A stretch of 64,000 nt of DNA from Protaetiibacter intestinalis (lineage in GTDB: Bacteria; Actinomycetota; Actinomycetes; Actinomycetales; Microbacteriaceae), in the NCBI RefSeq assembly GCF_003627075.1, contig NZ_CP032630.1, positions 186,001-250,000 on the forward strand, given 5' to 3'. Below, piece after piece: positions 3,934 through 58,944 of this stretch. The translations under genes and the position numbers were made by a program. The notes under the pieces were generated by a model. The model did not search any database and was not told the origin of the DNA. It worked only from the letters and a program-made list of their open reading frames with translations. Numbering within the stretch: the first letter of the stretch is position 1; each line of letters opens with the position of its first letter.

Positions 3934-4032
3934 CCGCTGCTCCTTCAGTTCTCGATGCGGGCCGGAGCCCGGGACAAACGACGAAGGGCGAGCCGCAGCC
4001 CGCCCTTCGCGAAGATGATGTCGCCCGGGCGA

Positions 4033-4287: not shown

Positions 4288-4302
4288 GTCTTCAGCCCCT
4301 GC

Positions 4303-4611: not shown

Positions 4612-4707
4612 GTGAGTTCCTTACGTATGGATGGAAGTCTGTTGCGGCGACGGGCCGGGGCCCGCTCCGCAGGGCGTCAGAATGCGGGCGAAGCCCTGCA
4701 GACACCA

Positions 4708-4743
4708 AGGATCAAGAATAGCCGACGCGGGCGCATCCGGCAA
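4708..4743 (-). promoter_or_regulatory. Promoter of the rplU-rpmA-obgE-proBA operon
   Basis: On the minus strand there is a TTGCCG (4738-4743), a 17-base spacer and TATTCT (4715-4720), a good housekeeping-sigma match. Transcription would start near 4708 and leave a leader of about 97 bases before rplU. That leader has GC-rich inverted stretches (around 4655-4700) which could fold, as expected for an autoregulated ribosomal-protein leader; the regulation is inference. Confidence 0.65.
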
Positions 4744-4749
4744 ACGCGC

Positions 4750-5253
4750 TCAGGAGCGCGGCACGCGGCGCACGACCCACAGCGCGAGCACCACGAGCAT
4801 GACGAGCGGCGCGCTCGCCAGCAGCTCGGGAACGAGGGACGCGAAGGGGTTGAAACCGCCGTAGTACCGCACGTCGCCGAGGCTCCAGATGCCGGTCGAG
4901 ACGAGCGCCACCACGAAGCTCACGACGGTCGACAGCAGCACCCCGGCGGCCGCGGCGGCGAGCCCCTTGCCGAGCACGACGAGCACGCGATCCCCCTGGC
5001 GGGCGGGCAGCAACCACAGCAGCAGGAACACGCCCGCCGAGAAGGCGACCACGTCGACGAGCACGCCGTTCACGAACGGCAACACGACGCCCACGAGGTA
5101 GTCCTGGTCGCCGAGCCAGACGAGCGACTGCGCGAGCGACGCGAGACGCTGCAGCAGGGCCACCCCCGCGACGATCGCCGCCGCGAGCAGCGCCGGACGC
5201 GGATCCCGGCGCGGTACGAGGGTCGTCGGGCGCGCGGAGTCGTGGTGCGTCAT
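4750..5253 (-). CDS. Hypothetical membrane protein (4 predicted helices)
   Basis: A 167-residue protein with a polar N-terminus and about four hydrophobic segments (near 20-45, 55-80, 95-120 and 143-162), ending in VVRRVPRS. I do not recognise a family. It reads away from the divergent gene at 5300 and ends just before the rplU promoter, so it is probably a single-gene transcript. Its codon use matches its neighbours. Confidence 0.75.
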   Translation of the reverse strand: MTHHDSARPTTLVPRRDPRPALLAAAIVAGVALLQRLASLAQSLVWLGDQDYLVGVVLPFVNGVLVDVVAFSAGVFLLLWLLPARQGDRVLVVLGKGLAAAAAGVLLSTVVSFVVALVSTGIWSLGDVRYYGGFNPFASLVPELLASAPLVMLVVLALWVVRRVPRS

Positions 5254-5299
5254 GGCTGCGAGCCTACGAGCGGATGCCGTGGCCGCCTAGGATCGCGGC

Positions 5300-5569
5300 A
5301 TGCCTGTCCTCATCGACGAGGCGATCTGGCCCAACCACGGCACCGTGTGGGGGCACCTGGTCTCCGACACCTCGCTCGAGGAGCTGCACGCCTTCGCGCG
5401 CCGCGCCGGCATCCCGGAGCGCGGCTTCGACCACGACCACTACGACTACCCCGCCGCACGCCGTGACGAGCTCATCGCGCTCGGCGCGGAGCCCGTCACG
5501 GGGCGCGAACTGCTGCGCCGCCTGCAGGCCTCCGGCCTGCGCGTGCGCCAGCGCGACAAGCGCGGCTGA
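5300..5569 (+). CDS. DUF4031 domain protein
   Basis: An 89-residue cytosolic protein beginning MPVLIDEAIWPNHGTVWGHLVSD. The W-x-H-x-G-x-x-W-x-H-L start, the RGFDHDHYD stretch and the C-terminal basic end are characteristic of the DUF4031 family, small actinobacterial proteins of unknown function. An upstream TAGGAT (5287-5292) lies a few bases before the ATG, consistent with a very short leader. No operon partner is visible. Confidence 0.85.
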   Translation: MPVLIDEAIWPNHGTVWGHLVSDTSLEELHAFARRAGIPERGFDHDHYDYPAARRDELIALGAEPVTGRELLRRLQASGLRVRQRDKRG

Positions 5570-5607
5570 GCCGCGCGCCGCATCCGGAGCGCGCGGGCGT
5601 CCGGGCG

Positions 5608-5714
5608 TTCCCATCTCAAGGAGTTCGGGAACCCGTTTCAAGGAGGTGGTGTGACTCCTGTCGCCTCCCGTGGCGGATGTGGCCTATGGGAGGCCGGACT
5701 CCTTGAGATGGGAA
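5608..5714. repeat. 107-bp element with 17-bp perfect terminal inverted repeats
   Basis: TTCCCATCTCAAGGAGT at 5608-5624 is repeated in inverted form at 5698-5714. Between the arms are further CAAGGAG copies and an inner CCTCCC/GGGAGG pair, so the whole unit can fold into a branched hairpin. It lies between the DUF4031 gene and the end of the RNase E/G gene. It could be a terminator-like structure or a small non-coding mobile repeat. Confidence 0.7.
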
Positions 5715-5764
5715 GGCTGAGGTGGGGTGCGGAGTGCGGGGTGCGGAGGCGCGGCTGAGCCTGC

Positions 5765-8002
5765 TCAGCCGGCGGTGGTGTCGGGGGAACCGGCGGAGGA
5801 GGAGGCGCGGCGCGAGCGACGCGAGCGGCCGCGGCCGGGGGCCGCGGGCTCGGGCAGCGAGGCGAGCACGGGGCCGAGCACGGCATCCGGGTCAACCGCG
5901 GGGCGCTCGACGCGCACCGGCTCGATCGGGATGTCGAGGATCTCGACGGGGGCGGCCGCGACCGCCTCCGCCACCTGCTCGGCGGCCGGCTCGGCGTGCT
6001 CGTCGTGGTGCACGGTCTTCGCCGCGATCTTGGCGAGCGCGTTGCGCACGTCGTCGGTGATCTCGTGGGTGCCGCCGCCCGCGGGCTTCGCCGCCGGGGT
6101 GCCCCCGTTGCCGTTCCCGTTGCCGCCTCCGCCGCCGTTGCCCCCGCGACCGCGACGGCTGCGCGAGGAACCGGCGCTCGGCTCGGGCTGGGCGCCGCGG
6201 TGCTTGAAGACCGGGTCGTGGTGCACGATGAGGCCGCGGCCCGCGCACACCTCGCAGGTCTCCGAGAACGACTCGAGCAGGCCCAGGCCCAGCTTCTTGC
6301 GGGTCATCTGCACGAGACCGAGGGAGGTGACCTCGGCCACCTGGTGCTTGGTGCGGTCGCGCGACAGGCACTCGACGAGCCGGCGCAGCACGAGGTCGCG
6401 GTTGGACTCGAGCACCATGTCGATGAAGTCGACGACGATGATGCCGCCGATGTCGCGCAGCCGCAGCTGGCGCACGATCTCCTCCGCCGCCTCGAGGTTG
6501 TTCTTGGTGACGGTCTCCTCGAGGTTGCCGCCGGACCCCACGAACTTGCCCGTGTTGACGTCGACGACCGTCATCGCCTCGGTGCGGTCGATGACGAGCG
6601 AGCCGCCCGAGGGCAGCCAGACCTTGCGCTCGAGCGCCTTCTCGATCTGCTCGGTGATGCGGTGCTTGTCGAAGCTGTCGACCTCGTCCTCGTAGCGCTC
6701 GACGCGGTCGAGCAGATCGGGTGCGACGGCGGCGAGGTACTTCTCGATCGTGCCCTGCGCGTCGTCGCCCGCGATGATGAGCTTCTGGAAGTCCTCGTTG
6801 AAGACGTCGCGCACGATCTTGAGCAGCAGGTCGGGCTCGGAGTGCAGCAGCGCGGGCGCCTGCTGGGTCTCCACGGCACGCTCGATCTCGGCCCACTGCG
6901 AGGTCAGCCGCTGCACGTCGAGCGTCAGCTGCTCCTCGGTGGCGCCCTCGGCGGCGGTGCGCACGATGACGCCCGCGTCATCCGGCAGCACCTCCTTGAG
7001 GATCTTCTTGAGGCGCGCGCGCTCGGTGTCGGGGAGCTTGCGGCTGATGCCGTTCATGGATCCGCCGGGCACGTACACGAGGTAGCGGCCGGGGAGGCTC
7101 ACCTGGCTCGTGAGGCGGGCGCCCTTGTGGCCGACCGGGTCCTTGGTGACCTGCACGAGCACACGGTCGCCGGGCTTGAGGGCGAGCTCGATCTTGCGCG
7201 CCTGGTTCTTCTCGCGGCCCGCCTCCTCGGCGGCGGCCGCGGCGGCCTCCCAGTCGACCTCGCCCGAGTAGAGCACGGCGTTGCGGCCGCGGCCGATGTC
7301 GACGAAGGCGGCCTCCATCGAGGGCAGCACGTTCTGCACGCGCCCCAGGTAGACGTTGCCGATGAGGCTCGCGTCGGCGGCACGGGCGACGTAGTGCTCG
7401 ACGAGCACGCCGTCCTCGAGCACGCCGATCTGGATGCGGCCGAACTTCGAGCGCACCACCATGACGCGGTCGACCGACTCGCGGCGGGCGAGGAACTCGG
7501 CCTCGGTGATGACGGGGCGGCGGCGGCCGGCGTCGCGGCCGTCGCGGCGGCGCTGCTTCTTGGCCTCGAGGCGCGTGGAGCCCTTGACACGCTGCGGCTC
7601 GGTGATGGGGGCGGGCGCCTGGCGGGGCTGGCGCACCCGGACGGTCGTGCCGGGGGCGTCCTCGCCCTCGCGGGGCGCGTCGCCCGCACGACGGCGGCTG
7701 CGACGGCGCGAGGAGCTCGTGCCGGCGGCGGCGGGCTCGTCCTCGGGGGCGCTCGTCGGCGCGGCGGCGCCGGGGGGCGGAGGCGGGGGCGCCTGGAACA
7801 GCAGCGCGAACGGCGAGGCGGGCTCCTCGGCGGCGGGCTCGGCGTCCGCTTCGGGCGCGAGCTCGGCATCCGCCGCGGGCTCCGCCTTCTTCTTCGCGCG
7901 GCTGCGGGCCGGCTTCTTCGCCTTCGGCGCCTCGGCCGCGGGCTGCTGCTCGGCGTCCGGGGCGTTCACCGGGTCGGTCTCGGGTACGTCGTTCTCCACC
8001 AT
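5765..8002 (-). CDS. rne: Ribonuclease E/G family endoribonuclease
   Basis: Single-strand-specific endoribonuclease for mRNA turnover and rRNA maturation. The 745-residue protein has a disordered acidic/Lys-Arg-rich N-terminal extension (about 1-180), an S1 RNA-binding region starting near FGRIQIGVLEDG, the RNase H-like and DNase I-like catalytic regions (VDVNTGKF, IVVDFIDM) and the zinc-link CEVCAGRG, followed by a Gly/Asn-rich tail. I choose ATG at 8002 because GAGGAG precedes it with good spacing; an in-frame ATG at 8092 has no ribosome site. N- and C-terminal disordered arms around the core are typical of actinobacterial RNase E. Confidence 0.95.
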   Translation of the reverse strand: MVENDVPETDPVNAPDAEQQPAAEAPKAKKPARSRAKKKAEPAADAELAPEADAEPAAEEPASPFALLFQAPPPPPPGAAAPTSAPEDEPAAAGTSSSRRRSRRRAGDAPREGEDAPGTTVRVRQPRQAPAPITEPQRVKGSTRLEAKKQRRRDGRDAGRRRPVITEAEFLARRESVDRVMVVRSKFGRIQIGVLEDGVLVEHYVARAADASLIGNVYLGRVQNVLPSMEAAFVDIGRGRNAVLYSGEVDWEAAAAAAEEAGREKNQARKIELALKPGDRVLVQVTKDPVGHKGARLTSQVSLPGRYLVYVPGGSMNGISRKLPDTERARLKKILKEVLPDDAGVIVRTAAEGATEEQLTLDVQRLTSQWAEIERAVETQQAPALLHSEPDLLLKIVRDVFNEDFQKLIIAGDDAQGTIEKYLAAVAPDLLDRVERYEDEVDSFDKHRITEQIEKALERKVWLPSGGSLVIDRTEAMTVVDVNTGKFVGSGGNLEETVTKNNLEAAEEIVRQLRLRDIGGIIVVDFIDMVLESNRDLVLRRLVECLSRDRTKHQVAEVTSLGLVQMTRKKLGLGLLESFSETCEVCAGRGLIVHHDPVFKHRGAQPEPSAGSSRSRRGRGGNGGGGGNGNGNGGTPAAKPAGGGTHEITDDVRNALAKIAAKTVHHDEHAEPAAEQVAEAVAAAPVEILDIPIEPVRVERPAVDPDAVLGPVLASLPEPAAPGRGRSRRSRRASSSAGSPDTTAG

Positions 8003-8348
8003 CTCTGGTGCACTCCTCGCCCGGGGCGGCCGCGCCGGCCTCCGGGTACTCTCCTGCGGTCCCGCGTGATGCGGAACGCCAATCCTGTTCATGGTCCGCG
8101 ACCTCGCAAGGCGGTCGGTCGCGTTCGCCCTCTCACGGCGTGGGCTCTGTCACAGCCCGGGTCCGGCGGACCCGCGGAACTGGCTATCCGTCTGGATGCG
8201 TTTCCCGACGCGGCGGGAGGAGCACCTCTCGGCCCGGTGAAGCCCGGTCAAGCTTGTTGTGGGCCGCCCGTGGGGGCGACTGTCACGATTATCGCACGAG
8301 GATGCCGTTCGCGGCATTTCCTCACCCTCGGCGTGGGAGGATCGCGCC
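8003..8348. promoter_or_regulatory. Divergent control region with long rne leader
   Basis: This 346-base stretch holds no gene. On the minus strand TGCGATAAT (GATAAT at 8288-8293) is a strong extended -10, which would give rne an untranslated leader of about 275 bases with several GC-rich inverted repeats. Long rne leaders are known from enterobacteria and mycobacteria, where RNase E controls its own message; here that role is inferred. The plus-strand VKOR gene begins at its right edge. Confidence 0.5.
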
Positions 8349-9038
8349 ATGACCGACGTCGCCCACCCCGACACCGACTACGACGACGAGCTCGACGACG
8401 AGGAGTTCGACGAGCTCGAGGTTCCGGAGCCCCGCACCTCGGACCGCACGCCGTGGGTGTTCGCCATCTGGCTCATCCTGGCGGGCATCGTCGGCGAGAT
8501 CGCGGCGGCCGCGCTCACGATCGAGAAGATCCACGCGCTGCAGACCCCCGGCTCGGTCGCGAGCTGCGACTTCAACGCCTTCGTGCAGTGCACGAAGAAT
8601 CTCGACTCCTGGCAGGGCAGCGTGTTCGGCTTCCCGAACCCGATCATCGGCCTCATCTGCTGGATGGCGCCCATCGTCGTCGGCGTCTCGGTGCTCGCGG
8701 GCGCCCGGTTCCCGCGCTGGTACTGGACCGTGTTCAACATCGGCGTGCTCGGCGCGGTCGTCTTCGTGATCTGGCTCGCCGCGCAGTCGATCTTCGCCTC
8801 GAACCTGCGCACCCTCTGCCCCTACTGCGTGCTCACCTGGTCGGTCACCTACCCGACCTTCCTCGCGGTGACGTTCCGCAACCTCGCGGCGGGCGTCTTC
8901 GGGGCCCGGGGCGTGACGGTCGGCCGCGCGCTGCTGCCCTGGGTCGCCCCGATCAGCATCGTCATCATGCTCGTGATCTTCGGCATCGCGCAGACCCAGC
9001 TGCCCGTCGTGCAGAGCATCATCCAGATCTTCTCCTGA
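8349..9038 (+). CDS. Vitamin K epoxide reductase (VKOR) family membrane protein
   Basis: Quinone-linked membrane oxidase that re-oxidises a DsbA-like partner, the actinobacterial substitute for DsbB. The 229 residues have a long acidic cytosolic N-terminus, five hydrophobic segments, the paired cysteines C73 and C81, and the active-site CPYC at 157-160. ATG 8349 is chosen over an in-frame start 30 codons earlier because the latter lies in the intergenic control region. The next gene encodes a membrane-anchored CPVC thioredoxin-fold protein, its likely redox partner. Confidence 0.93.
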   Translation: MTDVAHPDTDYDDELDDEEFDELEVPEPRTSDRTPWVFAIWLILAGIVGEIAAAALTIEKIHALQTPGSVASCDFNAFVQCTKNLDSWQGSVFGFPNPIIGLICWMAPIVVGVSVLAGARFPRWYWTVFNIGVLGAVVFVIWLAAQSIFASNLRTLCPYCVLTWSVTYPTFLAVTFRNLAAGVFGARGVTVGRALLPWVAPISIVIMLVIFGIAQTQLPVVQSIIQIFS

Positions 9039-9105
9039 GCCCCCGGTAGACTCCAGGCACCCGTTCCCAGCGTTCTCCGATCCCCACCGAAGCAGGATTT
9101 CACCC

Positions 9106-9978
9106 GTGACCAACGCGCCCAAGCCGACCAAGAACCAGCGCCGCGAGGAGGCCCGCGAGGCAGCCCGCGCGGCCCGCGAGAAGCAGCTCAAGCGTCAGAA
9201 GACGCTCAAGTGGCTCATCCCGACGGTGGCGTCCGTCGCGATCCTCGCCGTCGTCGCCGGGGTCGTCTGGGCCGTCATCGCCTTCCAGCCGGCGCCCAAG
9301 CAGGAGGCCGGCCCGCTCAACATGATCAGCGACGGCATCCTCTTCGAGACGGATGGCGCGGGCGGCGTGCAGCACGTCGAGACGAAGGCGATCGCGAAGG
9401 GCACCGACCCGATCGCGACGACGCCGCGCGACGACGCGCTCAACATCGTCATGTACGTCGACTTCTCCTGCCCGGTCTGCAAGGCCTTCGAGGGCGCCAA
9501 CGCCGACTACATCCAGTCGCTCGTCGCCGACGGCTCGGCCACCCTCGAGGTGCACCCGATCTCGATCCTCGACTACCGCGGCTACACGACCGACTTCGCG
9601 ACCCGCGCCAACAACGCGGGCGCGTGCGTCGCGAACTACGCGCCCGAGTCGTTCCTCGACGTCATGGCCGCCATGTACGAGCAGCAGCCGTCCGAGGGCG
9701 GACCGGGTCTCGGCAACTCGGCGATCGTCGATGTGGTGAAGAGCGCGGGCCTCGACGACGAGGACGTCAACAGCTGCATCCGCGGCGTGAGCTTCGAGCC
9801 CTGGGTGAGCGCGGCGACCGACCGCGCCCTCGCCGGGCCGCTGCCGAACACCGAGCTCGCCAACGTGAGCGGCACGCCGACGATCCTCATCGACGGCCAG
9901 CAGTACACGCCGACCACCTCGTGGGACAGCGCCGAGGAGTTCCAGGCGTTCGTCTACGCGATCTCGCAGGCCGCCTGA
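9106..9978 (+). CDS. Membrane-anchored DsbA-like thiol oxidoreductase
   Basis: A 290-residue protein: charged cytosolic tail, one transmembrane helix (about 37-59), then an extracytoplasmic DsbA/thioredoxin fold with active-site CPVC at 122-125 and the cis-Pro segment SGTPTILI near the C-terminus. It should insert disulfides into exported proteins and be re-oxidised by the VKOR protein encoded 67 bases upstream. Start is GTG 9106. A TAGACT at 9047-9052 may give it a promoter of its own. Confidence 0.93.
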   Translation: MTNAPKPTKNQRREEAREAARAAREKQLKRQKTLKWLIPTVASVAILAVVAGVVWAVIAFQPAPKQEAGPLNMISDGILFETDGAGGVQHVETKAIAKGTDPIATTPRDDALNIVMYVDFSCPVCKAFEGANADYIQSLVADGSATLEVHPISILDYRGYTTDFATRANNAGACVANYAPESFLDVMAAMYEQQPSEGGPGLGNSAIVDVVKSAGLDDEDVNSCIRGVSFEPWVSAATDRALAGPLPNTELANVSGTPTILIDGQQYTPTTSWDSAEEFQAFVYAISQAA

Positions 9979-9988
9979 GCGGCCCCGG

Positions 9989-10792
9989 TCACGCGTCGAT
10001 GAGCAGGCGGTCCGCGAGGGCCGCCTGCTCCGTCTCGCGGATGCCGAGTCCCTCCGCGAAGTAGGCCTCGATGCCGCCGAACTCGGCCCGCATGACGCGG
10101 AACGCCTCGTCGAGGTAGCTGCGGTCGACGCCGAGCACCGGGATCAGCAGTTCGCGCGGGGCGCCGTGCGCGGCGAACCGCTGGAACAGCGGCTCGAGCG
10201 CGGGCAGCAGCTGCTCGTTGGTGAGCAGGTACTCCCGGTAGACGTCGTCCTCCGAGACGCCGAGCAGGGTGAGCAGCGCGGCGGTCGCCCAGCCGGTGCG
10301 GTCCTTGCCGGTCGTGCAGTGGTAGAGCACGGGCACGTCGACCCCGTCGAGCAGCAGCCGGTAGAAGGCCCCGAGCCCCGCGCGGGCGCTCGGCAGCGTG
10401 ATGAACTCGCGGTACGCGGAGCGCATCGCGTCGTCGGCTCGACCGCTCGCGAGGAAGGCGATCGCCTGCGCGGGGTCGCGGAAGAACGCCTGCATCTGGG
10501 CGGGCGCCGCGACCTGGGAGTCGGCGAGCACGTCCTCGACCATCGCGCGCACGCCCGCGAGGGCGCGGTCGGGCTGGTTCACGCGCTCGGTCTCGGTGCG
10601 GAAGTCGACGACGCAGCGGATGCCGTAGCCGGCGAGCGTCGCGGCATCCGCGTCGTCCAGCCGGTCGAGCGCCGTCGAGCGGAACAGCAGGCCCGTGCGC
10701 ACCCGGCGGCCGCCGGCGGCGACCCAGCCGCCCGCGTCGCGGAGGTTCGGCAGCGTCGCGAGCGCGATGTGTGCGCCGGGTGCCGCCGTCAT
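9989..10792 (-). CDS. Tyrosine-protein phosphatase (protein-tyrosine/serine phosphatase family)
   Basis: The 267-residue protein has the Y-phosphatase signature HCTTGKDRTG at 158-167, with the nucleophile C159 and the phosphate-binding R165, preceded by NLRDAGG and VVDFRTETE motifs typical of the bacterial PTP family (Pfam Y_phosphatase3). Its ATG overlaps the ndk stop as ATGA, so it is the last gene of the ileS-folC-ndk run. Substrates cannot be inferred. It ends 10 bases from the convergent DsbA-like gene. Confidence 0.92.
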   Translation of the reverse strand: MTAAPGAHIALATLPNLRDAGGWVAAGGRRVRTGLLFRSTALDRLDDADAATLAGYGIRCVVDFRTETERVNQPDRALAGVRAMVEDVLADSQVAAPAQMQAFFRDPAQAIAFLASGRADDAMRSAYREFITLPSARAGLGAFYRLLLDGVDVPVLYHCTTGKDRTGWATAALLTLLGVSEDDVYREYLLTNEQLLPALEPLFQRFAAHGAPRELLIPVLGVDRSYLDEAFRVMRAEFGGIEAYFAEGLGIRETEQAALADRLLIDA

Positions 10793-11217
10793 CCGCGCGC
10801 CGGGAACCAGAGCGCGAGCTCGCGCGCGGCCGACTCGGGCGCGTCGGAGCCGTGCACGAGGTTCTGCTGCACCTTGAGACCCCAGTCGCGCGCGAGGTCG
10901 CCGCGGATGGTGCCGGGGGCCGCGCTCGTCGGGTCGGTCGTGCCGGCGAGGGCGCGGAAGCCCTCGATGACCCGGTTCCCGGCGACGCGCATCGCGACGA
11001 CGGGGCCCGACTCCATGAACTCGACGAGCGGCTCGTAGAACGGCTTGCCCTCGTGCTCGGCGTAGTGGGCGGCGAGCAGCTCACGGTCGGCCTGCAGCAG
11101 GCGGATGTCGACGAGCTGGTAGCCCTTCGCCTCGATGCGGCGCAGGATCTCGCCCGTGAGGTTGCGGGCCACCCCGTCGGGCTTGACGATGACGAGGGTC
11201 TCTTCCACGGCGGTCAC
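10789..11217 (-). CDS. ndk: Nucleoside-diphosphate kinase
   Basis: Transfers the gamma-phosphate from NTPs to NDPs through a phospho-histidine. At 142 residues it is normal length, with ETLVIVKPDG at the start, RNIIHGSD-type motif NLVHGSD containing the catalytic His, and the C-terminal WF. GTG 11217 is chosen because it overlaps the upstream stop as GTGA. It lies between DUF4233 and a phosphatase in an overlapping operon. Confidence 0.97.
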   Translation of the reverse strand: MTAVEETLVIVKPDGVARNLTGEILRRIEAKGYQLVDIRLLQADRELLAAHYAEHEGKPFYEPLVEFMESGPVVAMRVAGNRVIEGFRALAGTTDPTSAAPGTIRGDLARDWGLKVQQNLVHGSDAPESAARELALWFPARG

Positions 11218-11651
11218 GATGCGTCTCCTTCGGTGTGTGCGGCGGCCTCGGCCTCCGCTTCGGCGTGGGCGGCCAGCCAGGCCGCCTTGCGGGTGTCGAT
11301 CTGGCGGCCGCGCACGTAGCAGTACACCCACATGGCGGCGAAGCCGGAGCCGACGAGGAACATGGCGGGCTCGACGACGCCCGTCGCGATGATGACGAGC
11401 TGCAGGGCCCCGCCCGTCCAGACCCCCCAGCTCCAGCGCTGCAGGCCCGCGACGATCGCGAGCACGAGCATGAGGATGCCGCCGTAGACGAGCGCCGACC
11501 AGTCGGGGTCGAGGCGGTCGAGGCCGAACACCACGAGCGAGGCGAAGAACAGCATGATCGCCTCGAGCACGAGCACGATCGACAGCAGCGTCTCGACGAG
11601 CGAGCGCTCGCGACGCACCCGCGTGCGGGGCGCACGCGGGGCGGCGGTCAC
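11214..11651 (-). CDS. DUF4233 family membrane protein
   Basis: A 145-residue protein with four hydrophobic segments (about 20-110), the central GVVEPAMFLVGSGFAAMWVYC, and a charged Ala/Glu-rich tail. DUF4233 proteins are found in actinobacteria between folC and ndk, exactly as here. Function is unknown. The GTG at 11651 overlaps the folC stop, and its own stop overlaps the ndk start. Confidence 0.9.
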   Translation of the reverse strand: MTAAPRAPRTRVRRERSLVETLLSIVLVLEAIMLFFASLVVFGLDRLDPDWSALVYGGILMLVLAIVAGLQRWSWGVWTGGALQLVIIATGVVEPAMFLVGSGFAAMWVYCYVRGRQIDTRKAAWLAAHAEAEAEAAAHTEGDAS

Positions 11652-13033
11652 TTCCAGCCCCCGTCGCGGGCGAGCGCGATGACGTCGCCGACGAGGGTGA
11701 TCGAGCCGGTCACGACGACGGCGCGGCGGGGCGACTCCGACGCCCACACCCGGGCGGCCTCGACGGCGTCCGCGAGCTCGTGGTGCACGAACACGGCATC
11801 CGGTTCGACGTCGTCGCGCACGAGCTCGGCGAGCTCCTCGGCGTCGACCGCCCGGTCGGAGCTCGACTGCGTGACGTCGACGCGGCTCGCCGTGGCGGCG
11901 AGCTCGGCGACGATCCCGTGGGCGTCCTTGTCGGCGAGCACGCCGAGCACGAAGCCGAACTCGTCGAAGTCGAAGTACTCCTGCAGGGCCGCCGCGAGCG
12001 CGGCCGCGCCGTGCGGGTTGTGCGCGGCGTCCACGAGCACGGTCGGCTCGACGCCGACGAGCTGCAGGCGCCCGGGCGAGGCGACCTGCCCGAAGCCCTC
12101 GGCCACGACATCCGGATCGAGTGCGACGGTGCCGTCGCCGAGGAACGACTCGACGGCGGCGACCGCGACGGCCGCGTTCTGCGCCTGGTGGTCGCCGTAG
12201 AGCGGCAGGAAGACGCTCGTGTAGCGGCCCGCGCGACCGCGGATGTCGACGAGCTGCCCGCCGACGGCGACCGTCGTGGACTCGAGGGCGAAGTCGACGC
12301 GCTCGATCTCGAGCGTCGCCTCGTCGATCGCGGCGGCGGCGCGCAGCTCGTCGAGCGCCTCGATCGGCTGGATCGCGGTGACGACGGTCGCGGCGGGCTT
12401 GATGATGCCCGCCTTGGTGCGCGCGATCTCGGCGACGGTCGAGCCGAGTCGCTGGGTGTGGTCGAGCGCGATGGGCGTGAACACGGCCACCTGCCCGTCG
12501 GCGACGTTCGTCGAGTCCCACTCGCCGCCCATTCCGACCTCGAGCACGACGACGTCGACGGGCGCGTCGGCGAAGCTCGCGAAGGCGAGCACCGTGAGCG
12601 CCTCGAAGAAGGTCAGCGTCTCCTCGCCGTCCGCGGCGAGCTCGGCGTCGACCATGAGCAGGTACGGGCGGATGTCGTCCCAGTTGCGCGCGAAGGCCTC
12701 GTCCGAGATCGGCACGCCGTCGATCATGATGCGCTCGGTGACGCGCTCGAGGTGCGGGCTCGTGAGCAGGCCCGTGCGCAGACCCGTGGCGCGCAGCAGC
12801 GACTCGATCATGCGGCTCGTGGAGGTCTTGCCGTTGGTGCCCGTGACGTGCACGACGGGCGCCGCCCGGTGCACGTCGCCGAGCAGCTCGACGGCGCGGC
12901 GCGTCGGCTCGAGGCGCGGCTGCGGCGCCACCTCGCCCACGCGTCCGAGCAGTTCGGCGTAGGCGGCATCCGCCGCGGCCCGGAACTCGGCGGCCTCGAG
13001 CTCGTCGTAGGCGTCCGGATCGTCTGCGCTCAT
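11648..13033 (-). CDS. folC: Bifunctional folylpolyglutamate / dihydrofolate synthase
   Basis: Adds glutamate to dihydropteroate and to folates. The 461-residue protein has the Mur-ligase-type P-loop TGTNGKTS at about 64-71, the [14 protein letters not shown] motif and a C-terminal glutamate-ligase domain with DAAHNPHG. Length is normal for actinobacterial FolC. ATG 13033 overlaps the ileS stop as ATGA, so it should be translated from the ileS message. Confidence 0.96.
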
Positions 13034-50672: not shown

Positions 50673-52046
50673 TCAGTGCGAGTGGCCCTCGTGGTCGTCG
50701 TGCTCGTGCTCGACGCCCGTGAGGTCGGTCTCCTCGATGATCTCGGAGTCGTCCGAGCCGTCGCCGAGCACCGCGGTGGTGAGGGCCGAGACGTCGACCG
50801 CCTTGCCCTTCTCGTCGACGACCTTCGCCTTCGACAGCGCGACCGCGATCGCCTTCGAGCGGGCGACCTCGCCCACCATCGACGGGATCTGGCCCGACTG
50901 GCTGAGCGCCTGGATGAACTCGGCCGGCTCCATGCCGTACTGGGCGGATGCCTGCACGAGGTAGCCGGTGAGCTCGTTCTGGCTCACCTTCACCTCCTCG
51001 GCCTCGACGATCGCGTCGAGCAGCAGCTGGCGGCGGAACACCTTCTCCGACTCCTCCGCCACCTCGGCGCGGTGCACGTCGTCCTCGAGGCGGTTCTCGT
51101 TCTCAAGGTGACGGTGCACCTCGGCGTCGATGAGGCCCTGCGGCACGGGGATGTCGGCCTTCTCGACGAGCAGCTCGACGAGCTTGTCGCGTGCGGCGGC
51201 CGCCTGGCCGAACTCGGCCGACTTCTCGAGCTGCTCCTTGATGTCCTTGCGGAGCTCGCCGATGGTGTCGAACTGGGAGGCGATCTGGGCGAAGTCGTCG
51301 TCGGCCTCGGGAAGCTCGCGCTCCTTCACCGACTGCAGGGTGACGGCGATCTGCGCCTTCTCGCCCTGGTGGTCGCCGCCCACGAGCTCCGACTCGAAGG
51401 TCGTCGACTCGCCCGCGGTGAGCGTGTCGAGCGCCTCGTCGATGCCCTCGATGAGCTCGCCCGAGCCGATCTCGTAGGAGATGTTGGATGCCGTGTCGAT
51501 CTCCTCGCCGCCGATGGTGGCGACCAGGTCGAGCTGCGCGAAGTCGCCCTTCTTGGCGGGGCGGTCGACGGTCACCAGGGTGCCGAAGCGGCTGCGCAGG
51601 TTCTCGAGCTCGGCCTCCACCTCATCCGGGCCGACCTTGGCCGTCTCGACCTCGACCTTGAGGCCGTCGTACTTGGGCACCTCGAACTCGGGGCGCACGT
51701 CCACCTCGACGGTGAACTCGAGGTCGCCCGTGAAGTCCTTCTCGCTGGGCCACGTGGTGACGTCGGCCTCGGGGCGGCCGAGGGGCTTCAGCTGCTCGGC
51801 CGCAGCGGCCTCGCGGTAGTAGCGCTCGAGGCCCTCCGACACGGCGTGGTTGAGCACCTCGGCCCGGCCGACGCGCTGGTCGATGATGGGCGGCGGCACC
51901 TTGCCCTTGCGGAAGCCGGGGATGTTAACCTGCTCGGCGATGTGCTTGTAGGCGTGCTCGATGGAGGGCTTGAGCTCCTCCGGCGTCACGGTGATGTTGA
52001 GCTTGACGCGGGTCGGCGAGAGCTTCTCGACGGTCGTGGTGACCAT
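50673..52046 (-). CDS. tig: Trigger factor (ribosome-associated chaperone and prolyl isomerase)
   Basis: A 457-residue protein: ribosome-binding domain ([34 protein letters not shown]), FKBP-type PPIase domain ([19 protein letters not shown]...[11 protein letters not shown]) and a long helical C-terminal domain, with a His/Asp-rich tail. ATG 52046 is chosen; 33 further in-frame codons run into the tRNA-Pro gene and cannot be coding. It lies just downstream of tRNA-Pro. Confidence 0.96.
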
Positions 52047-52086
52047 GGGGGATGTATCTCCTGGGTTTCGTTTCGCTGATGTTCCG

Positions 52087-52495: not shown

Positions 52496-52501
52496 TAGAC
52501 T
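52496..52501 (+). promoter_or_regulatory. Promoter -10 of the tRNA-Gly locus
   Basis: TAGACT lies 36 bases before the first base of the tRNA-Gly 5' half. Transcripts would run through the broken half into the intact tRNA-Gly carried by the element, about 200 bases downstream on the same strand. No good -35 is visible. Confidence 0.45.
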
Positions 52502-52537: not shown

Positions 52538-52576
52538 GGGGATGTAGCTCAATGGTAGAGCCTCAGTCTTCCAAAC
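52538..52576 (+). pseudogene. 5' half of the host tRNA-Gly(TCC) gene (attL)
   Basis: GGGGATG acceptor strand, TA, D-arm GCTC-AATGGTA-GAGC, anticodon 5' stem TCAGT, and loop CTTCCAA are intact. After the core GTCTTCCAAAC (52566-52576) the sequence becomes CGGACGGGCTGAGG and no T-arm follows. Joined to 57552-57583 it makes a complete tRNA with perfect acceptor and anticodon stems. Confidence 0.9.
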
Positions 52577-52704
52577 CGGACGGGCTGAGGTCGCACCAGC
52601 GGTTAGTGGCCCGGAAACGGTGAGAAGGCCGAGCAGGGCTCGCCAGGCCGGACGACAAATCCGGGCGAGAACCGGGCCAGATCACCAAAAACTGAACACA
52701 GCAC

Positions 52705-52775
52705 GGGGCGGTAGCTCAATGGTAGAGCCTTAGTCTTCCAAACTAATTACGCGGGTTCGATTCCCGTCCGCCCCT
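52705..52775 (+). tRNA. Element-borne tRNA-Gly(TCC)
   Basis: A 71-base cloverleaf: acceptor GGGGCGG/CCGCCCC, D-arm GCTC/GAGC, anticodon stem TTAGT/ACTAA with loop CTTCCAA, T-arm GCGGG-TTCGATT-CCCGT, discriminator T. The D- and T-arms equal those of the split host gene. The acceptor and anticodon stems differ but with compensating changes, so it is a separate, apparently functional tRNA that can replace the broken one. Confidence 0.93.
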
Positions 52776-52871
52776 CCAGCCTGGCCCCCTGTGCGGGCGC
52801 GCAATGTCGGCCCTTCCCTCTACGCTCGGTGCTGAACACCCGAGCGGCACGTCAAGGATGGGGCAATAGCA

Positions 52872-54008
52872 ATGAGCCTTCAGGAAGAGATCGAGCAGCG
52901 CGCTCAAGAGATCCACACTGACGCCTACAGCATGTCGATCAACGAGGCCGTGGCGATGTACACAGAGGGCGATCTCGACGTCCACCCCGAATTTCAGCGC
53001 ATCTTCCGGTGGACTCTGGAACAACAGAGCAAGCTGATCGAGAGCATTTTTCTGGGGATCCCGATCCCACCGATCTTCGTGGCGACACGCAAGGATGGCG
53101 TGTGGGACGTGGTCGACGGCGTGCAGCGTCTGTCCACCATCTTCCGCTTCATGGGCGTCCTTACAGATGAATCGGGGGCCATAGACATACCTGCCCCGCT
53201 GAAGGCTGGGGAGTACCTCGACGCTCTCCAAGGAACCGTCTACTCAGCCGAGCCGTTTGACGACGCACTTCCCGCAAACAGTTTCGAGCTGGATGATGCG
53301 CAGCGCCGTCTCTTCAAGCGCGCTCGACTCGACTTCCAAATCGTTCAGAAGGAGAGTGACGAACAAGCCAAGTACGACCTGTTCCAACGTCTGAACAGCG
53401 GGACTCGTCTCTCCGAGCAAGAGGCGCGGAACTGCCTCGCGGTGATGCTTGACGCGACCTTCTCGAGATGGATCGACAGCCTCGCGGCAGACGAACACTT
53501 CTCCAACGTGATGAACATCAGCGACCGGCAGCACGATGAGGCCTACGACGCCGAGAGCGTACTGAGATTCCTCGCTATCACCGAGGCCTCAGGGGAAGAG
53601 CGGCAACGTATGGGTGACGTCGGTGAGTTCCTGACCCAATCTCTGCGCAAGTTCATCGCAGACCCAGACTTCGATCGAAGCTTCCAAGAAGCACGATTCC
53701 GCGAAATCTTCGCTGCTCTTGATGACGCGCTTGGTTCAGACGCATTCCGGCGCCATGACCCGCAGCGGGATCGGTACAGCGGAAGGTTCAGCGTGTCCGC
53801 CTTCGAGACGGTCGCGAGCGGTCTCGCACGCCACTGGGATGGATGGCGGGCGCTCGATGCAACTGAGCGTTCTCACGAACTTCAACGCCTTGTCCCGACG
53901 GTTTGGCAGGACCCGACCTTCATCCAGCGGGCTGGCGGCGGTAAGGCTGCCGAACGACGAATTCCTTGGATGGTCGAGATCGGCGAACGCATATTCAGTA
54001 GGCCCTAA
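52872..54008 (+). CDS. DUF262 domain protein (predicted GmrS-like nuclease/NTPase component)
   Basis: A 378-residue protein with the DUF262 signatures: PEFQRIFRW at 39-47, IESIFLGIPIPPIFV at 56-70, VDGVQR (the D-G-x-Q-R motif) at 81-86, and FQRLNSGTRLSEQEARN at 171-187. DUF262 is the ParB-like domain of the GmrS half of GmrSD type IV restriction and of many uncharacterised defence genes. There is no DUF1524 HNH domain. The next gene, a HEPN predicted RNase, begins directly at its stop codon, so the two should act together. Confidence 0.9.
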   Translation: MSLQEEIEQRAQEIHTDAYSMSINEAVAMYTEGDLDVHPEFQRIFRWTLEQQSKLIESIFLGIPIPPIFVATRKDGVWDVVDGVQRLSTIFRFMGVLTDESGAIDIPAPLKAGEYLDALQGTVYSAEPFDDALPANSFELDDAQRRLFKRARLDFQIVQKESDEQAKYDLFQRLNSGTRLSEQEARNCLAVMLDATFSRWIDSLAADEHFSNVMNISDRQHDEAYDAESVLRFLAITEASGEERQRMGDVGEFLTQSLRKFIADPDFDRSFQEARFREIFAALDDALGSDAFRRHDPQRDRYSGRFSVSAFETVASGLARHWDGWRALDATERSHELQRLVPTVWQDPTFIQRAGGGKAAERRIPWMVEIGERIFSRP

Positions 54009-54644
54009 GTGCACACACCGCAAGACGTACAGGACGCCCTGGATTCCGACCTCGCCTGGCGTCGGGTTGAGATGCACACGATCTTGGACGATGCGAGGAG
54101 CGCGCGGGGACCGAGACAAGAGGCATTGACGCGCGCGGGAGTAGCACTGCTATATGCCCATTGGGAGGGCTACACGAAGAACGCCCTGAGCCTGTACGTA
54201 AAGTTCGTCTCCAGACGACGCCTCAAACTCAACGAACTGACCCCGGGATTCGCAGGCATGGCAGCCGATAGCGAGGTGCGACGACGCCAGAAGCTGAGTA
54301 ACCAGCGCCACCGGACCGCGCTAGTGCAGCTTCTCATGGACGATTCCGATTCACGGCTCTCGATTCCGAGCAAGGAGGTGAACACGCAGGGGAACCTCAA
54401 CAGCGACCTCTGTCGCGAACTACTAGAAACGTTTGGACTGGACTTCGAGCCCTTCGTCACAAAGACAGCGCTCATCGACTACAACCTTCTCCGAGCGAGA
54501 AATGATATTGCGCACGGACGGTGGGCATCCGTACGTATCGACGACTACGAGAGCCTGAATTCCCAAGTTCTCACCCTCATTGAGACGGTCAGGAATCTCG
54601 TTTTGACGGCTGTGGACAACGGCGGCTATAGGCGCGCTGGTTAG
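54009..54644 (+). CDS. MAE_28990/MAE_18760-type HEPN predicted RNase
   Basis: A 211-residue helical protein. YAHWEGYTK (49-57) and the HEPN catalytic motif R-N-D-I-A-H (R164...H169, R-x4-H) in LLRARNDIAHG match the MAE_28990-like HEPN family, which is found next to DUF262 genes in other genomes. HEPN domains with an intact R-x4-6-H usually cut RNA. Start is GTG 54009, immediately after the TAA of the DUF262 gene. It converges on the integrase gene 32 bases away. Confidence 0.85.
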   Translation: MHTPQDVQDALDSDLAWRRVEMHTILDDARSARGPRQEALTRAGVALLYAHWEGYTKNALSLYVKFVSRRRLKLNELTPGFAGMAADSEVRRRQKLSNQRHRTALVQLLMDDSDSRLSIPSKEVNTQGNLNSDLCRELLETFGLDFEPFVTKTALIDYNLLRARNDIAHGRWASVRIDDYESLNSQVLTLIETVRNLVLTAVDNGGYRRAG

Positions 54645-54676
54645 GAGGTGAGGGTCGGCAGCCCTCGATCCCCTTA

Positions 54677-55813
54677 TCATCCGTCGGCGACGAACGCCTC
54701 GAAGCGGGCGATCTGGTCGGTGTAGTCGCTCGGGTACAGATGCCCGTAGATGCCGTCGGTCGTGCTGACGTTCGCGTGGCCCATCCAGCGGCTGACCTCA
54801 TACGGTTTGAAACCCGCGGCGAGCATGAGGCTCGCGTAGGTATGCCGGAGGTCGTGCATGCGCATATGGCCGACGATCTTGAGCCGCTGCGCTGCCGGGA
54901 CGAGGTAGTACTGCCGCACTCCGCCGACGTCTATTGGACGGGTCCAGTCGAGGCGGCGTGAGCCGTTCGCCCGCCCCGGCCAGAACAGGGCGTCGGGGTC
55001 GCCGCTGTTCGGGTTTGAGAGGAGGACCGTCCGCAGCTCTGTCACGAGAGCTCGGTTCAGGAGCGGCACCTGCCGTGTGCTCCGAGCGGACTTCGGTGTG
55101 CCGACTACCCATTCCCTGCCGAGGCGCTTGACGGTCTGACGAACCTCGATGTGACCAGCAGCGAGGTTCACGTCCCGTACCCTCAGCCCGGCGATCTCTG
55201 CGGCGCGGAGGCCGGTGTAGGCGGCGAAGCGGATGAGAGTGCCGAGCGGCTTGGTCTTATCCAGCTCTGCGGCGATCGTCTCGACCTGAGCCGCAGTGAG
55301 GAACACCGGCGCGAAGTCCTCACGGACGGTGACCTTCGGGAGCTCGACAGCCTCGCAGGGGTTGTGGGCGATGAGCCGGTGGCGGAGGGCGTAGCGGAAC
55401 AGCTTGTTCAGCGCCACGTAGTAGTTGTGGACGGTGTTCGGGGCGAGCCCGGCCTTCACCAGGTCGGCGATCCACTTCTCGATCTCCTGAGAGCCGACTC
55501 CGGCGATGCGCTTGGCGCCGAACCGCGGTGCGATCTGGGCAGCGTAGAGCGTCCGGTAGCCCGCGAGCGTGCCCGGCTTCAACCGCTGTGCGCTCGCGGC
55601 GAGGGACGCCTCGATGACCTGCGCGACGGTCTGGCCCCTGCTGATGAGCGGTTCCGTCGAACGGCCTTCGGCTTTCTCGAGCTCAACACGGGCAGCGAAC
55701 TTCTCGGCCTCCTTCCGCAACCGGAAGGTACGCATCTTCTTGACGTCCGCGTCACGCCAGTGGACCTCGAAGGCGGTTCCCTTCTTGCGTCCGACCTCGG
55801 TGATGTGCGCCAT
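54677..55813 (-). CDS. int: Tyrosine recombinase / integrase
   Basis: A 378-residue site-specific recombinase: N-terminal arm-binding AP2-like region (GTAFEVHWRD...RLRKEAEKFA), core-binding domain (about 60-160), and catalytic domain with R203 (TGLRAAE), H320xxR323 (HDLRHTY), H346 (MGHANVS) and Tyr356 (GIYGHLY). All catalytic residues are present, so it may be active. It should act at the tRNA-Gly anticodon-loop core. Its ATG overlaps the stop of the gene upstream (TGATG). Confidence 0.95.
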   Translation of the reverse strand: MAHITEVGRKKGTAFEVHWRDADVKKMRTFRLRKEAEKFAARVELEKAEGRSTEPLISRGQTVAQVIEASLAASAQRLKPGTLAGYRTLYAAQIAPRFGAKRIAGVGSQEIEKWIADLVKAGLAPNTVHNYYVALNKLFRYALRHRLIAHNPCEAVELPKVTVREDFAPVFLTAAQVETIAAELDKTKPLGTLIRFAAYTGLRAAEIAGLRVRDVNLAAGHIEVRQTVKRLGREWVVGTPKSARSTRQVPLLNRALVTELRTVLLSNPNSGDPDALFWPGRANGSRRLDWTRPIDVGGVRQYYLVPAAQRLKIVGHMRMHDLRHTYASLMLAAGFKPYEVSRWMGHANVSTTDGIYGHLYPSDYTDQIARFEAFVADG

Positions 55814-56247
55814 CAGCAGTCCTTCCCTTCGAAGATCGAGAGGAATCGAACCCTGCCTAATCCGAGTTTCGCTACTCGTCTCCGAGAATCCGACGTAGGG
55901 CCATCGAAAGGGCCGGGGATGGGCACGGCCACCAGAAGGCCGCCGTTCGCCACGCTATGGGCCGAATAGCCCCAATCCCGCTCAGACGACACGAACGGCG
56001 ACTCGTAAAGGCCGAGGATTGAATCGACTAGTCCGGGAAATACCTCCACGAGCACCTGCCGGGGAGGCGCACCTCCGGGCGGGACGGCGACCCGAGAGCC
56101 CAGCACTGTCAGGGGGCGGTGAGGGCGGCGGGGACGGCGATGCCCGCACTCGCACACGGGCACCCAGGTGCGCCGCCCCGACCTCCCCCGCCGCCCTCCT
56201 CCGCGCTTGGCCTGCACGACGACCGCCCCGCGCCGCCCGCCGCTCAC
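55813..56247 (-). CDS. Possible small Arg-rich protein upstream of the integrase
   Basis: A 144-codon frame whose GTG overlaps the previous gene's stop (GTGA) and whose stop overlaps the integrase ATG (TGATG), suggesting a coupled chain. The N-terminal half is extremely Arg/Gly/Pro-rich with a CECGHRRPRR cluster, and codon use is odd, so I am unsure it is real. If real, a DNA-binding or recombination-direction role is conceivable from position only. Confidence 0.4.
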   Translation of the reverse strand: MSGGRRGAVVVQAKRGGGRRGRSGRRTWVPVCECGHRRPRRPHRPLTVLGSRVAVPPGGAPPRQVLVEVFPGLVDSILGLYESPFVSSERDWGYSAHSVANGGLLVAVPIPGPFDGPTSDSRRRVAKLGLGRVRFLSIFEGKDC

Positions 56248-56579
56248 AAGCGTGACGCCTTCCGATAGGCGGTGCCGTCGGTGTCGCCGCTGCGGGCGGC
56301 CTTCGACTCCAACTCACCGCTCGCCACCATCTCGCCGAGCACATCGTCCAGGACGTCGCGCTGCGCGGATGAGAGCTTCCGGGCGATGTAGCTGCGGCTG
56401 ATCCACTCCGGCCCGACGACCCCGCGGAGTCGCATGCGGCAGCTCGCCCGCCGTTCCTCGTCGGCAGCCTCGGAACGGACGATCTGGGCTAACTTCTCGA
56501 CCAGCGGGTGCTGGGTGATGGTCGAAAAACCGTAGGTGATCTCCGCCGGGTCGACGGGCTGCTGCGTGTGCTTGGGCAC
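56244..56579 (-). CDS. Hypothetical element protein
   Basis: A 111-residue soluble protein with helical content, including LVEKLAQIVRSEAADEERRA and YIARKLSSAQRDVLDDVLGEMVASGELESKAARSGDTDGTAYRKA, which looks like a winged-helix-type region. I choose GTG 56579, because AAAGGAG lies eight bases before it; an ATG ten codons upstream has no site. It is second in the chain leading to the integrase. Control of excision or integrase expression is possible. Confidence 0.65.
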   Translation of the reverse strand: MPKHTQQPVDPAEITYGFSTITQHPLVEKLAQIVRSEAADEERRASCRMRLRGVVGPEWISRSYIARKLSSAQRDVLDDVLGEMVASGELESKAARSGDTDGTAYRKASRL

Positions 56580-56641
56580 GAGTGAGTCTCCTTTGTTTGC
56601 TACTTCCATGGGAAGCGGCAGGAGTTACTCGAACGCTGGCG

Positions 56642-56938
56642 CTAGGCAGCGACCCCGACCGCGGAGAGCGCAGCGGGGAGGTTCGGCGAGTTGGGAGATG
56701 CCGAAAGGAGAAGCAACGAAGGTTCGTCGCGCGGGATGACGTCAGCGGAATCAGCGACGACTGTCAGCATCGCCACCACCGCGCGCTCACGCCCGAGGCG
56801 ATCGACGGCTACGAGCGCGGCCTCGCGGAGCGCGTTCAACTTGCGAGCCCGTCGCGTCCGGGTGAACGCCACGCTCGCCCGCATGTCATCACCGGGCATG
56901 TGTTCCTTCGCCCGGACGCCGTACCGGATGATCTTCAT
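56642..56938 (-). CDS. Hypothetical element protein
   Basis: A 98-residue protein beginning MKIIRYGVRAKEHMPGDDMRAS, with a basic helical region (FTRTRRARKLNALREAALVAVDRL). GAAGGAGGTG before the ATG is the strongest ribosome site in the element. It is first in the minus-strand chain to the integrase. Size and basic helix would fit a small regulator, but there is no family match that I can see. Confidence 0.65.
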   Translation of the reverse strand: MKIIRYGVRAKEHMPGDDMRASVAFTRTRRARKLNALREAALVAVDRLGRERAVVAMLTVVADSADVIPRDEPSLLLLSASPNSPNLPAALSAVGVAA

Positions 56939-57032
56939 GGCTGTTCACCTCCTTCCGCGGAAGACTCCATGAGAGCACAAGCCGCGACTGCACGTCCACG
57001 TTGTGGCGGGAACTGGTAGAAATTGGTGCCCG

Positions 57033-57235
57033 TCAGGCGTTGGCGAGGGCTGCCGCGTGACGGATCGCGGTGGAGAACTGCGCGCGCCGACCATCACGCA
57101 CCAGCCCCTGTGCCGATGGGTGATGGGTCTCGACCACGACGGGGCCGGGGCCGTCGATCAGCCCTGATGTGTACCTGCGCCACCCGCGTCGCGCGTAGTC
57201 ACCGCAGAGCACAATGACCATGACCTCCGGCAGCA
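57033..57235 (-). pseudogene. C-terminal remnant of a uracil-DNA-glycosylase-like gene
   Basis: The minus strand ends in VIVLCGDYARRGWRRY then a short gap and VVVETHHPSAQGL, followed by AIRHAAALANA and a stop. The G-x-x-A and H-P-S-x motifs in this order resemble the C-terminus of UDG-superfamily proteins. Upstream of about 57220 the frame loses all resemblance. I call it a truncated fragment with modest certainty. Confidence 0.45.
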
Positions 57236-57323
57236 GATCGAGAGCGGCCAGCGCAACGTCACCCTCGACAACATCCACCGGCTCGCAGCCGCGCTCGGTG
57301 TCTCGGCACGCGAACTGTTCTGA
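57219..57323 (+). pseudogene. C-terminal remnant of an XRE-type HTH regulator
   Basis: In one plus frame the sequence encodes DLRQQIESGQRNVTLDN then IHRLAAALGVSARELF and a stop. This is the second half of a Cro/CI-type HTH (end of recognition helix through helix 5). The first two helices are missing: a stop and unrelated sequence lie upstream. It abuts the opposing glycosylase-like fragment, so a deletion or insertion joined the two. Confidence 0.7.
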
Positions 57324-57540
57324 GCGCTCTCGCGAGCCGGTCGCGCTCAGGCAAGAAACTGGCAGCGCCGAGTCGCGGCAACCGGGCGGGAACCGGTCCA
57401 CCCGGTCGCACCGCCTGGTTCTACGACGCTCCGATTCGCACCACCCGCCACTCACACGTTGGCCGGACTCACCCATAAAATCGGCGCATCACGGCTGACG
57501 CCGGTAGCAGTCGGATTCACTCAGCGCGGCCCACTGGAAG

Positions 57541-57583
57541 GTCTTCCAAACTGATTACGCGGGTTCGATTCCCGTCATCCCCT
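57541..57583 (+). pseudogene. 3' half of the host tRNA-Gly(TCC) gene (attR)
   Basis: The core GTCTTCCAAAC is followed by the 3' anticodon stem, variable loop, T-arm GCGGG-TTCGATT-CCCGT, and acceptor strand CATCCCC with discriminator T. CATCCCC pairs with the GGGGATG of the left half, not with the GGGGCGG of the element tRNA. This proves the left and right pieces are the two halves of one gene. Confidence 0.9.
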
Positions 57584-58128: not shown

Positions 58129-58944
58129 TCAGCCGGCCGTACCGGTGACGCGGATGCGGCCCTCGGTGGGGATGTCGACGATGAGCCTCGAGGGGTGGCC
58201 CGTCTCGGCGCCCTGATCGATCGTGATCGTGGCGGGGACGGCGAGGTCGCTGCGTGCGCGCAGCACCGAGCCGAGACCCGCGGCAGCCGAGCCGGTGGCC
58301 GGATCCTCGCGGATGCCGCCGCGCGGGAACGGGTTGCGGGAGACGAAGGCGGTCGGCGCGAGGCGGTGCACGACCGGCACCGTGCCGTCCCAGCCCTCGC
58401 GGTCCTGCAGGGCGAGCACGGCATCCGCGTCGTGGTCGAGCCGGTCGAGCACCCCGGGGAGCACGAACACGACCGGATGCGGGTTGGCGCCCGTCACGAA
58501 CGCGGGCGCCAGCTCCGGGTCGAGGTCGGCGTGGTCGAGGCGCAGGGCGGCGAGCAGTTCGTCGAGCAGCGGCTCGGCGAGCGCCGCGACCCGCTCGTCG
58601 ACCGCGATGAGGGTGGCCCGCTCGGCCGTCGCCTCCACCGGCACCTCGCCCACCGGCGTCGCGAGCCGCACGACCGGGGCGGCGCCCCGCCGCGCGAGCG
58701 CGACCGCGGAGGCGATCGTCGCGTGCCCGCAGAAGCCGATCTCGGCACGCGGGCTGAAGTAGCGGATGGTCGCCGCATCCGGCGTGATCGCCGTCAGGAA
58801 CGCGGTCTCGCTGTAGCCGAGCTCCGCGGCGATCGCGAGCATCCCCGCCTCGTCGAGGCTCTCGGCATCGAGCACGACGCCCGCCGGGTTGCCGGATGCC
58901 GGGTCGTCGCCGATCGTGAAGGCACGCAAGCGCAGGATCTCCAT
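58129..58944 (-). CDS. PhzF family isomerase
   Basis: A 271-residue protein with the PhzF/diaminopimelate-epimerase-like double fold. SGNPAGVVLDAESL is near 18-31 and the catalytic Glu46 lies in GYSETAFL; GFCGHATIASA and DPATGSAAAGLG are the other conserved blocks. Most non-phenazine PhzF homologues have unknown isomerase activity, and no phenazine genes are present here. Confidence 0.92.
   Translation of the reverse strand: MEILRLRAFTIGDDPASGNPAGVVLDAESLDEAGMLAIAAELGYSETAFLTAITPDAATIRYFSPRAEIGFCGHATIASAVALARRGAAPVVRLATPVGEVPVEATAERATLIAVDERVAALAEPLLDELLAALRLDHADLDPELAPAFVTGANPHPVVFVLPGVLDRLDHDADAVLALQDREGWDGTVPVVHRLAPTAFVSRNPFPRGGIREDPATGSAAAGLGSVLRARSDLAVPATITIDQGAETGHPSRLIVDIPTEGRIRVTGTAG

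Follow-up and report, generated by a model that had tools for sequence, protein, structure and literature searches.

How does a bacterium fare when its gene for a transfer RNA (tRNA) has been cut through at the anticodon arm? The question is raised by a locus of Protaetiibacter intestinalis (Microbacteriaceae), where 4,975 bp (an integrative element plus one copy of its core) interrupt the host tRNA-Gly(TCC) gene within its anticodon arm. The locus lies at positions 52538–57583 of a stretch of 64,000 nucleotides (the window; contig NZ_CP032630.1, positions 186,001–250,000), to which coordinates refer unless another genome is named. Searches also covered the whole genome, a single contig of 3,097,107 bp (3.10 Mb) labelled G000, and other genomes of the family. 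A sequence-only reading of the window had proposed that the element splits the tRNA gene, that target and element are identical over an 11-bp core only, that neither junction rebuilds the gene and that a complete tRNA-Gly(TCC) is carried just inside the left end; all four proposals held.

The host 5′ half (attL; 52538–52576, + strand) begins with the acceptor strand GGGGATG and ends with the core (52566–52576), and the right junction (57541–57583, + strand) consists of a second core (57541–57551) and the host 3′ half, which ends in the acceptor strand CATCCCC. The host gene stops at 52576 and is picked up again at 57552, and the two acceptor strands pair with each other only. The shared core, GTCTTCCAAAC, spans the anticodon loop and the two inner stem pairs; a third copy (52733–52743) lies inside the element's own tRNA, and these three, all at the element locus, are the only exact copies in the genome. 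Identity between the attachment site of the element (attP) and that of the host (attB, within the tRNA gene) ends after 11 bp at both junctions; because attP shares no more than GTCTTCCAAAC with attB, the insertion destroys the host gene. No 3′ block that would restore the tRNA was found on the element at either junction, and no tRNA was called at either by ARAGORN or Rfam, which rules out a gene rebuilt at attL or attR. When the flanks were joined, ARAGORN called tRNA-Gly(tcc). As read from the junctions, the insertion lies in the anticodon arm, the host gene is lost and one complete replacement is present.

The site before insertion was sought in congeners, where an uninterrupted 71-base tRNA between a small CLDCG gene and a lipoprotein gene had been anticipated. 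The joined host halves (71 nt) were identical at 71/71 positions to the intact gene of one congener (G004), and each of the eight congeners has a single intact tRNA-Gly(TCC) gene adjoining tRNA-Pro(TGG). The anticipated neighbourhood was borne out only in part: the upstream CLDCG gene was present at six of the eight loci, and the lipoprotein gene at none of them within the 0.8–1.5 kb downstream covered.

The replacement tRNA (52705–52778, + strand) has the acceptor GGGGCGG/CCGCCCC and the anticodon-stem pair T28:A42, is oriented in the same direction as the host gene 128 nt inside the left end and scores 73.1 bits with Rfam, the fifth best of 46 tRNA-model matches in the genome. ARAGORN assigned anticodons to 45 of these 46 matches, among them one Gly(TCC) (the element copy), one Gly(GCC) and one Gly(CCC); the remaining match is weak (30.2 bits) and received no anticodon call. 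The sequence-only reading had made the cost of losing the element depend on its carrying the host's only Gly-TCC gene, and the genome-wide tRNA count agrees with this as far as the 45 readable matches go: no second Gly(TCC) gene was found elsewhere among them. By the standard wobble rules GGA is read by the UCC anticodon only. The element copy is the single one seen, and it would now be the sole supplier of GGA reading, with a presumably essential function. GGA is rare but used: it was counted once among 468 codons of the gene at 50676–52079, not at all in 271 codons at 58132–58944, and three, five and five times in the element's genes for the GmrSD_N protein, the HEPN protein and the integrase, respectively.

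It is very probable that the locus arose by tRNA-dependent, integrase-driven insertion of a small element. A tyrosine recombinase would have crossed over within the anticodon stem-loop (7-nt loop) of the host's only tRNA-Gly(UCC) gene; the host gene would thereby have been destroyed, and the complete tRNA-Gly(UCC) 128 nt inside the left end would have taken over. Transcription of the replacement would probably start, at least in part, at the host tRNA promoter (TAGACT at −42) and run through the broken half and the spacer, and RNase P would cut the tRNA out of this transcript. The result would be an addiction-like dependence, in which only precise excision, rejoining the halves, would lose the element without losing the tRNA. 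A full-length integrase and two exact cores leave precise excision possible.

The integrase is an uninterrupted tyrosine recombinase of 378 aa (amino acids) (54677–55813, − strand; PF00589, 7e-20; PHROG 1 integrase, 3.7e-63). Between it and the replacement tRNA lie an NsnA-like GmrSD_N/DUF262 protein of 378 aa (52872–54008, + strand; Pfam PF03235, 3.6e-23; PADLOC NsnA, 2.4e-59, residues 7–353) and a HEPN protein of the RiboL-PSP/MAE_28990 type of 211 aa (54009–54644, + strand; PF18735, 1.4e-29; PF18737, 2.3e-29), which had no PADLOC match. The HEPN translation contains RNDIAH, an Rx4H motif. Judged from their families, the two proteins probably form an anti-phage module. Towards the right end lie two small open reading frames (ORFs) of 121 aa (56244–56609, − strand) and 98 aa (56642–56938, − strand), neither with a family in Pfam, PADLOC, NCBIfam or PHROGs, and two gene remnants. 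One (57054–57281, − strand) probably derives from a gene of the uracil-DNA-glycosylase (UDG) superfamily; it was recognized by tblastn of the ORF at 57033–57476 against regions of two other genomes, G017 and G114 (see below), in which the counterparts are 203-aa proteins matching PF03167, while the fragment alone had no Pfam match. The other (57222–57323, + strand) is a C-terminal piece of an HTH_3 (XRE-type) regulator (PF01381, 4e-06, profile positions 28–55 of 55). The two remnants (57054–57323) lie on opposite strands and partly overlap close to the right end, which points to an earlier rearrangement. The search for gene content covered six ORFs of the element, plus one further ORF without a Pfam match, and in the six no phage structural, replication, lysis or conjugation family was found with Pfam, PADLOC, NCBIfam or PHROGs. 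By its predicted genes the element is thus small, integrase-encoding and defence-carrying, with no recognizable phage genes.

The mechanism is that of tRNA-dependent lysogeny, which is known from phages; the setting in a small defence element is new. The sequence-only reading had neither linked the locus to this precedent nor named the cargo. In the available text of Guerrero-Bustamante and Hatfull (mBio 2024, PMC10865867) this mode is described for the actinobacteriophages Fionnbharth, the Cluster L phages, Gaia and BrutonGaster. In the mycobacteriophage genetics reported there, Fionnbharth breaks the single-copy host tRNA-Lys(TTT) gene through a 10-bp core and, as shown by deletion of the phage tRNA, needs its own copy for efficient lysogeny; further phages with 8–17-bp cores are listed, some close integrase relatives rebuild instead, and the evolutionary relation of the two modes is called unclear there. 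Table 2 of that study, in the same available text, gives Lys-TTT, Ile2-CAT and Leu-CAA as tRNA-dependent, and the Gly-TCC phages Whitney and Kuwabara rebuild (PMC10865867). The present element shares with this system a tyrosine integrase, a short core in a tRNA gene, no rebuilt tRNA, a complete tRNA of its own and an isotype without another host copy (45/46 tRNA matches with an anticodon). It differs in that it is not a temperate phage, no phage structural, replication or lysis family having been found in the six ORFs; compared with the tRNA-dependent phages as far as the source text describes them, it measures 5 kb, carries a probable defence pair, uses the isotype Gly-TCC and has its tRNA 128 nt away from the core, pointing the same way as the host gene. 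In Sinorhizobium meliloti, according to the portion of the report available, an insertion has inactivated a host tRNA-Leu(UAG) gene, whose place is taken by a prophage copy of foreign appearance, and some islands also carry tRNA genes (PMC11476347); the prophages concerned resemble a Mesorhizobium phage, the phylum is another one and that portion describes no 5-kb defence element. Canonical tRNA-gene islands and prophages have related integrases, but their 3′ rebuilding block is absent here.

As to the cargo, the accessible part of PMC3710099 places MAE_28990 HEPN in an operon with genes for a ParB nuclease and a DNA methylase and elsewhere equates the ParB domain with DUF262, so that the DUF262–HEPN pairing seems to have a described counterpart; in contrast to that operon, no methylase was among the element ORFs searched, and the defence activity of the present pair is a prediction. 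The GmrSD_N (DUF262) domain of the GmrSD type IV restriction enzyme is present in the 378-aa protein, but a GmrD-type second domain is neither fused to it nor adjacent, the neighbour being HEPN by Pfam; the NsnA model of the PADLOC NsnA system is matched. In the open-licence literature searched, the tRNA-dependent mode was not found described for any small, non-phage defence element. Relative to the published descriptions, to the extent that their text was available, what differs is that the element is small and defence-carrying, that the isotype in this mode is Gly-TCC, that the replacement tRNA lies immediately within the junction and is oriented like the host promoter, and that relatives show signs of entrenchment.

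The last point comes from two other genera. A tRNA-Gly 5′ half that is not followed by its 3′ half was found by pattern search in three of 398 family genomes (G000, G040 and G017) and in one of 396 genomes of an order sample, which was G000 itself; the pattern assumes the anticodon arm of G000, and others can be missed by it. Each of the three has one complete Gly(TCC) gene by pattern, and G040 and G017 have the same left-end design as P. intestinalis with other cargo. In G040 (locus L109, G040:C11, 9836–12817) the identical tRNA begins 107 nt beyond the left half, and the cargo includes a DUF6932 protein; in G017 (L123, G017:C1:2886500-2906400, 4338–10136; assembly 86% complete with 5% contamination) both halves are present ∼5.7 kb apart, with a replacement tRNA and a cargo that includes a UDG-superfamily protein and one with a weak resemblance to nucleoside deoxyribosyltransferases. 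The element tRNA is identical at 74/74 positions in G040 and G017, and also in G244, where it occupies the native locus. The pair T28:A42 occurs in six of the 398 family genomes in all, three times in element tRNAs and three times in native genes; since the three element tRNAs are identical, it probably goes back to one event there. That this change protects the element tRNA from the integrase is only an idea. The HEPN cargo is unlikely as the cause of the variant, as G040 and G017 have the identical tRNA with no GmrSD_N or HEPN match. Identity of the tRNA amid diverged spacers (60/106, 67/107 and 49/85 aligned positions in the pairwise comparisons of G000, G040 and G017) fits selection on the tRNA.

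The spacer of P. intestinalis between core and replacement tRNA (52577–52704, + strand, 128 nt) has counterparts of 107 nt in G040 and 108 nt in G017. A TANNNT motif, TAGACT (52496–52501, + strand), starts 42 nt upstream of the left half and is probably the −10 box of the host tRNA-Gly promoter. The left halves of G040 and G017 are likewise preceded by TAGACT, and that of G114 by TACACT. Since neither the spacer of G000 (+ strand) nor that of G017 contains a TANNNT box, read-through from the host promoter into the replacement is inferred. Beyond the core, GCTGAG (52584–52589, + strand) and CTCAGC (57520–57525, + strand), seen in the sequence only, are inverted partners across the reconstructed attP core, the latter a candidate integrase accessory site. 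GGCTGA, which overlaps the former, follows the core at equal distance in all three split junctions, and the repeats and this placement might be those expected of recombinase sites.

Several observations weigh against the preferred reading. The truncated regulator and the UDG-like pieces show decay, so that the element may no longer move. The integrase piece of G040 is ∼100 aa long (91% identical), and the right host half was found neither in ∼33 kb of contig on the element side nor in the whole assembly (∼20 contigs), in which one site with two mismatches was seen besides the element tRNA; in G017 no tyrosine integrase lies between the halves. Of the three, only G000 thus looks autonomous. The transcription route is a guess, a simple sigma-70 scan having found no promoter in the spacer and none near the host gene either, and the absence of TANNNT from 128 GC-rich bases is weak evidence, one such box being present in the G040 spacer. 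Finally, the 74/74 identity could mean a recent common origin instead of selection.

The alternative that survives best, possible but doubtful, is a domesticated tRNA swap, in which the element is immobile now and is kept only for the host's need of the tRNA. The reduced state of G040 and G017 speaks for it, as does the native-locus tRNA-Gly(TCC) of G244 (L120, G244:C1:1533000-1552900, 9704–9777), which is the 74/74 copy mentioned above, with no element or spare half seen; the eight other genomes tested of that genus, unlike G244, all have the ATG/CAT acceptor and C28:G42. G244 may represent either a donor lineage or an element-derived replacement, the latter of which would probably need fewer steps. 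Against immobility in P. intestinalis itself stand the full-length integrase and the two exact cores. A wider picture may tentatively be drawn, although it is less probable than not by some way: a lineage of small non-phage elements in the Microbacteriaceae would break the only tRNA-Gly(UCC) gene of the host and use tRNA replacement as a stabilizer, together with promoter capture and a compensatory T28:A42 mark (from C28:G42) that blocks the integrase, and cargo and integrase would turn over (G040, G017) around a constant tRNA, which may become a host gene (G244).

It is unlikely, and less probable than domestication, that the locus is a degenerate prophage remnant, that is, a former tRNA-dependent phage that has lost its virion genes. 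Each of the proteins integrase, GmrSD_N and HEPN has a match among the PHROG families, the regulator and UDG-like debris would suit such a history and the known cases are phages. The six ORFs searched, however, include no structural, replication or lysis family, and the similar size of the G017 element (∼5.7 kb) with other cargo means that small size recurs. Among viral contigs, moreover, none had the tRNA signature and none the split-junction motif, and of integrase relatives five stretches fitted a pattern and none was confirmed. Phage records matching the integrase (1,441) were all under 60% identity, and no tRNA match of more than 95% identity was found in phage records (268) or plasmid records (49).

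That the element is an ordinary tRNA-targeting island, with the host gene rebuilt and the internal tRNA as cargo or an extra copy, is barely conceivable: rebuilding is common with related integrases, but at this locus it is refuted by the lack of a tRNA at either junction, by identity that stops at 11 bp, by acceptor halves that pair only mutually and by the lack of another Gly(TCC) gene among those found in the genome. The frequency of rebuilding was taken from 19 loci with related integrases, ten of which carry a partial tRNA copy as a 3′ block of 40–59 nt (L102, L107 and L113 among them at tRNA-Gly(TCC)); one is split (L109, G040) and eight (L090, L096, L099, L100, L104, L108, L111 and L112) show no block above 14 nt within the stretch covered. 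These 19 come from 24 loci (L090–L113), of which L091 and L098 (stretch covered without a tRNA gene), L093 (the same locus as L107), L094 (the same as L109) and L095 (right half only) were left out; the shorter loci L060–L089 were outside the tested set. At L113 (G114:C21:36200-56100, 3432–12882) an intact host tRNA is followed 95 nt on by a second tRNA-Gly with several changes and then by two right halves ∼4.6 kb apart. This looks like tandem insertions that rebuilt the gene and left a second tRNA of decayed appearance, and resembles an intermediate between rebuilding and replacement.

With tRNA-dependent insertion as the preferred reading, a mechanism shown for temperate phages would extend to a small defence-carrying element, which points to a way in which such islands become difficult to lose: an essential host tRNA becomes the property of the element. 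The related loci supply candidate states for ordering the events, namely relatives that rebuild, a rebuilt gene followed by a second tRNA that looks decayed (G114), complete replacement (G000 and G017), replacement in which most of the integrase and probably also the right half have been lost (G040) and, with no element present, a possible trace (G244). Three features deserve further attention: where the promoter lies, the change in the stem and the relatives that are entrenched.

An integrase match at E ≤ 1e-30 was present in 68 of the 398 family genomes. In a tree of 21 rows, several of them truncated, the integrase of G000 is sister to that of G040 (97/90 support, with 27% of the columns filled in the G040 row) among relatives near tRNA genes. 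Across L090–L113 related integrases were seen near Gly, Ser, Lys, Thr, Tyr, Met, Asn and Pro tRNA genes in Microbacteriaceae. At L095 (8001–10305), where no left half was recognized nearby, integrase pieces lie together with a tRNA-Gly right half.

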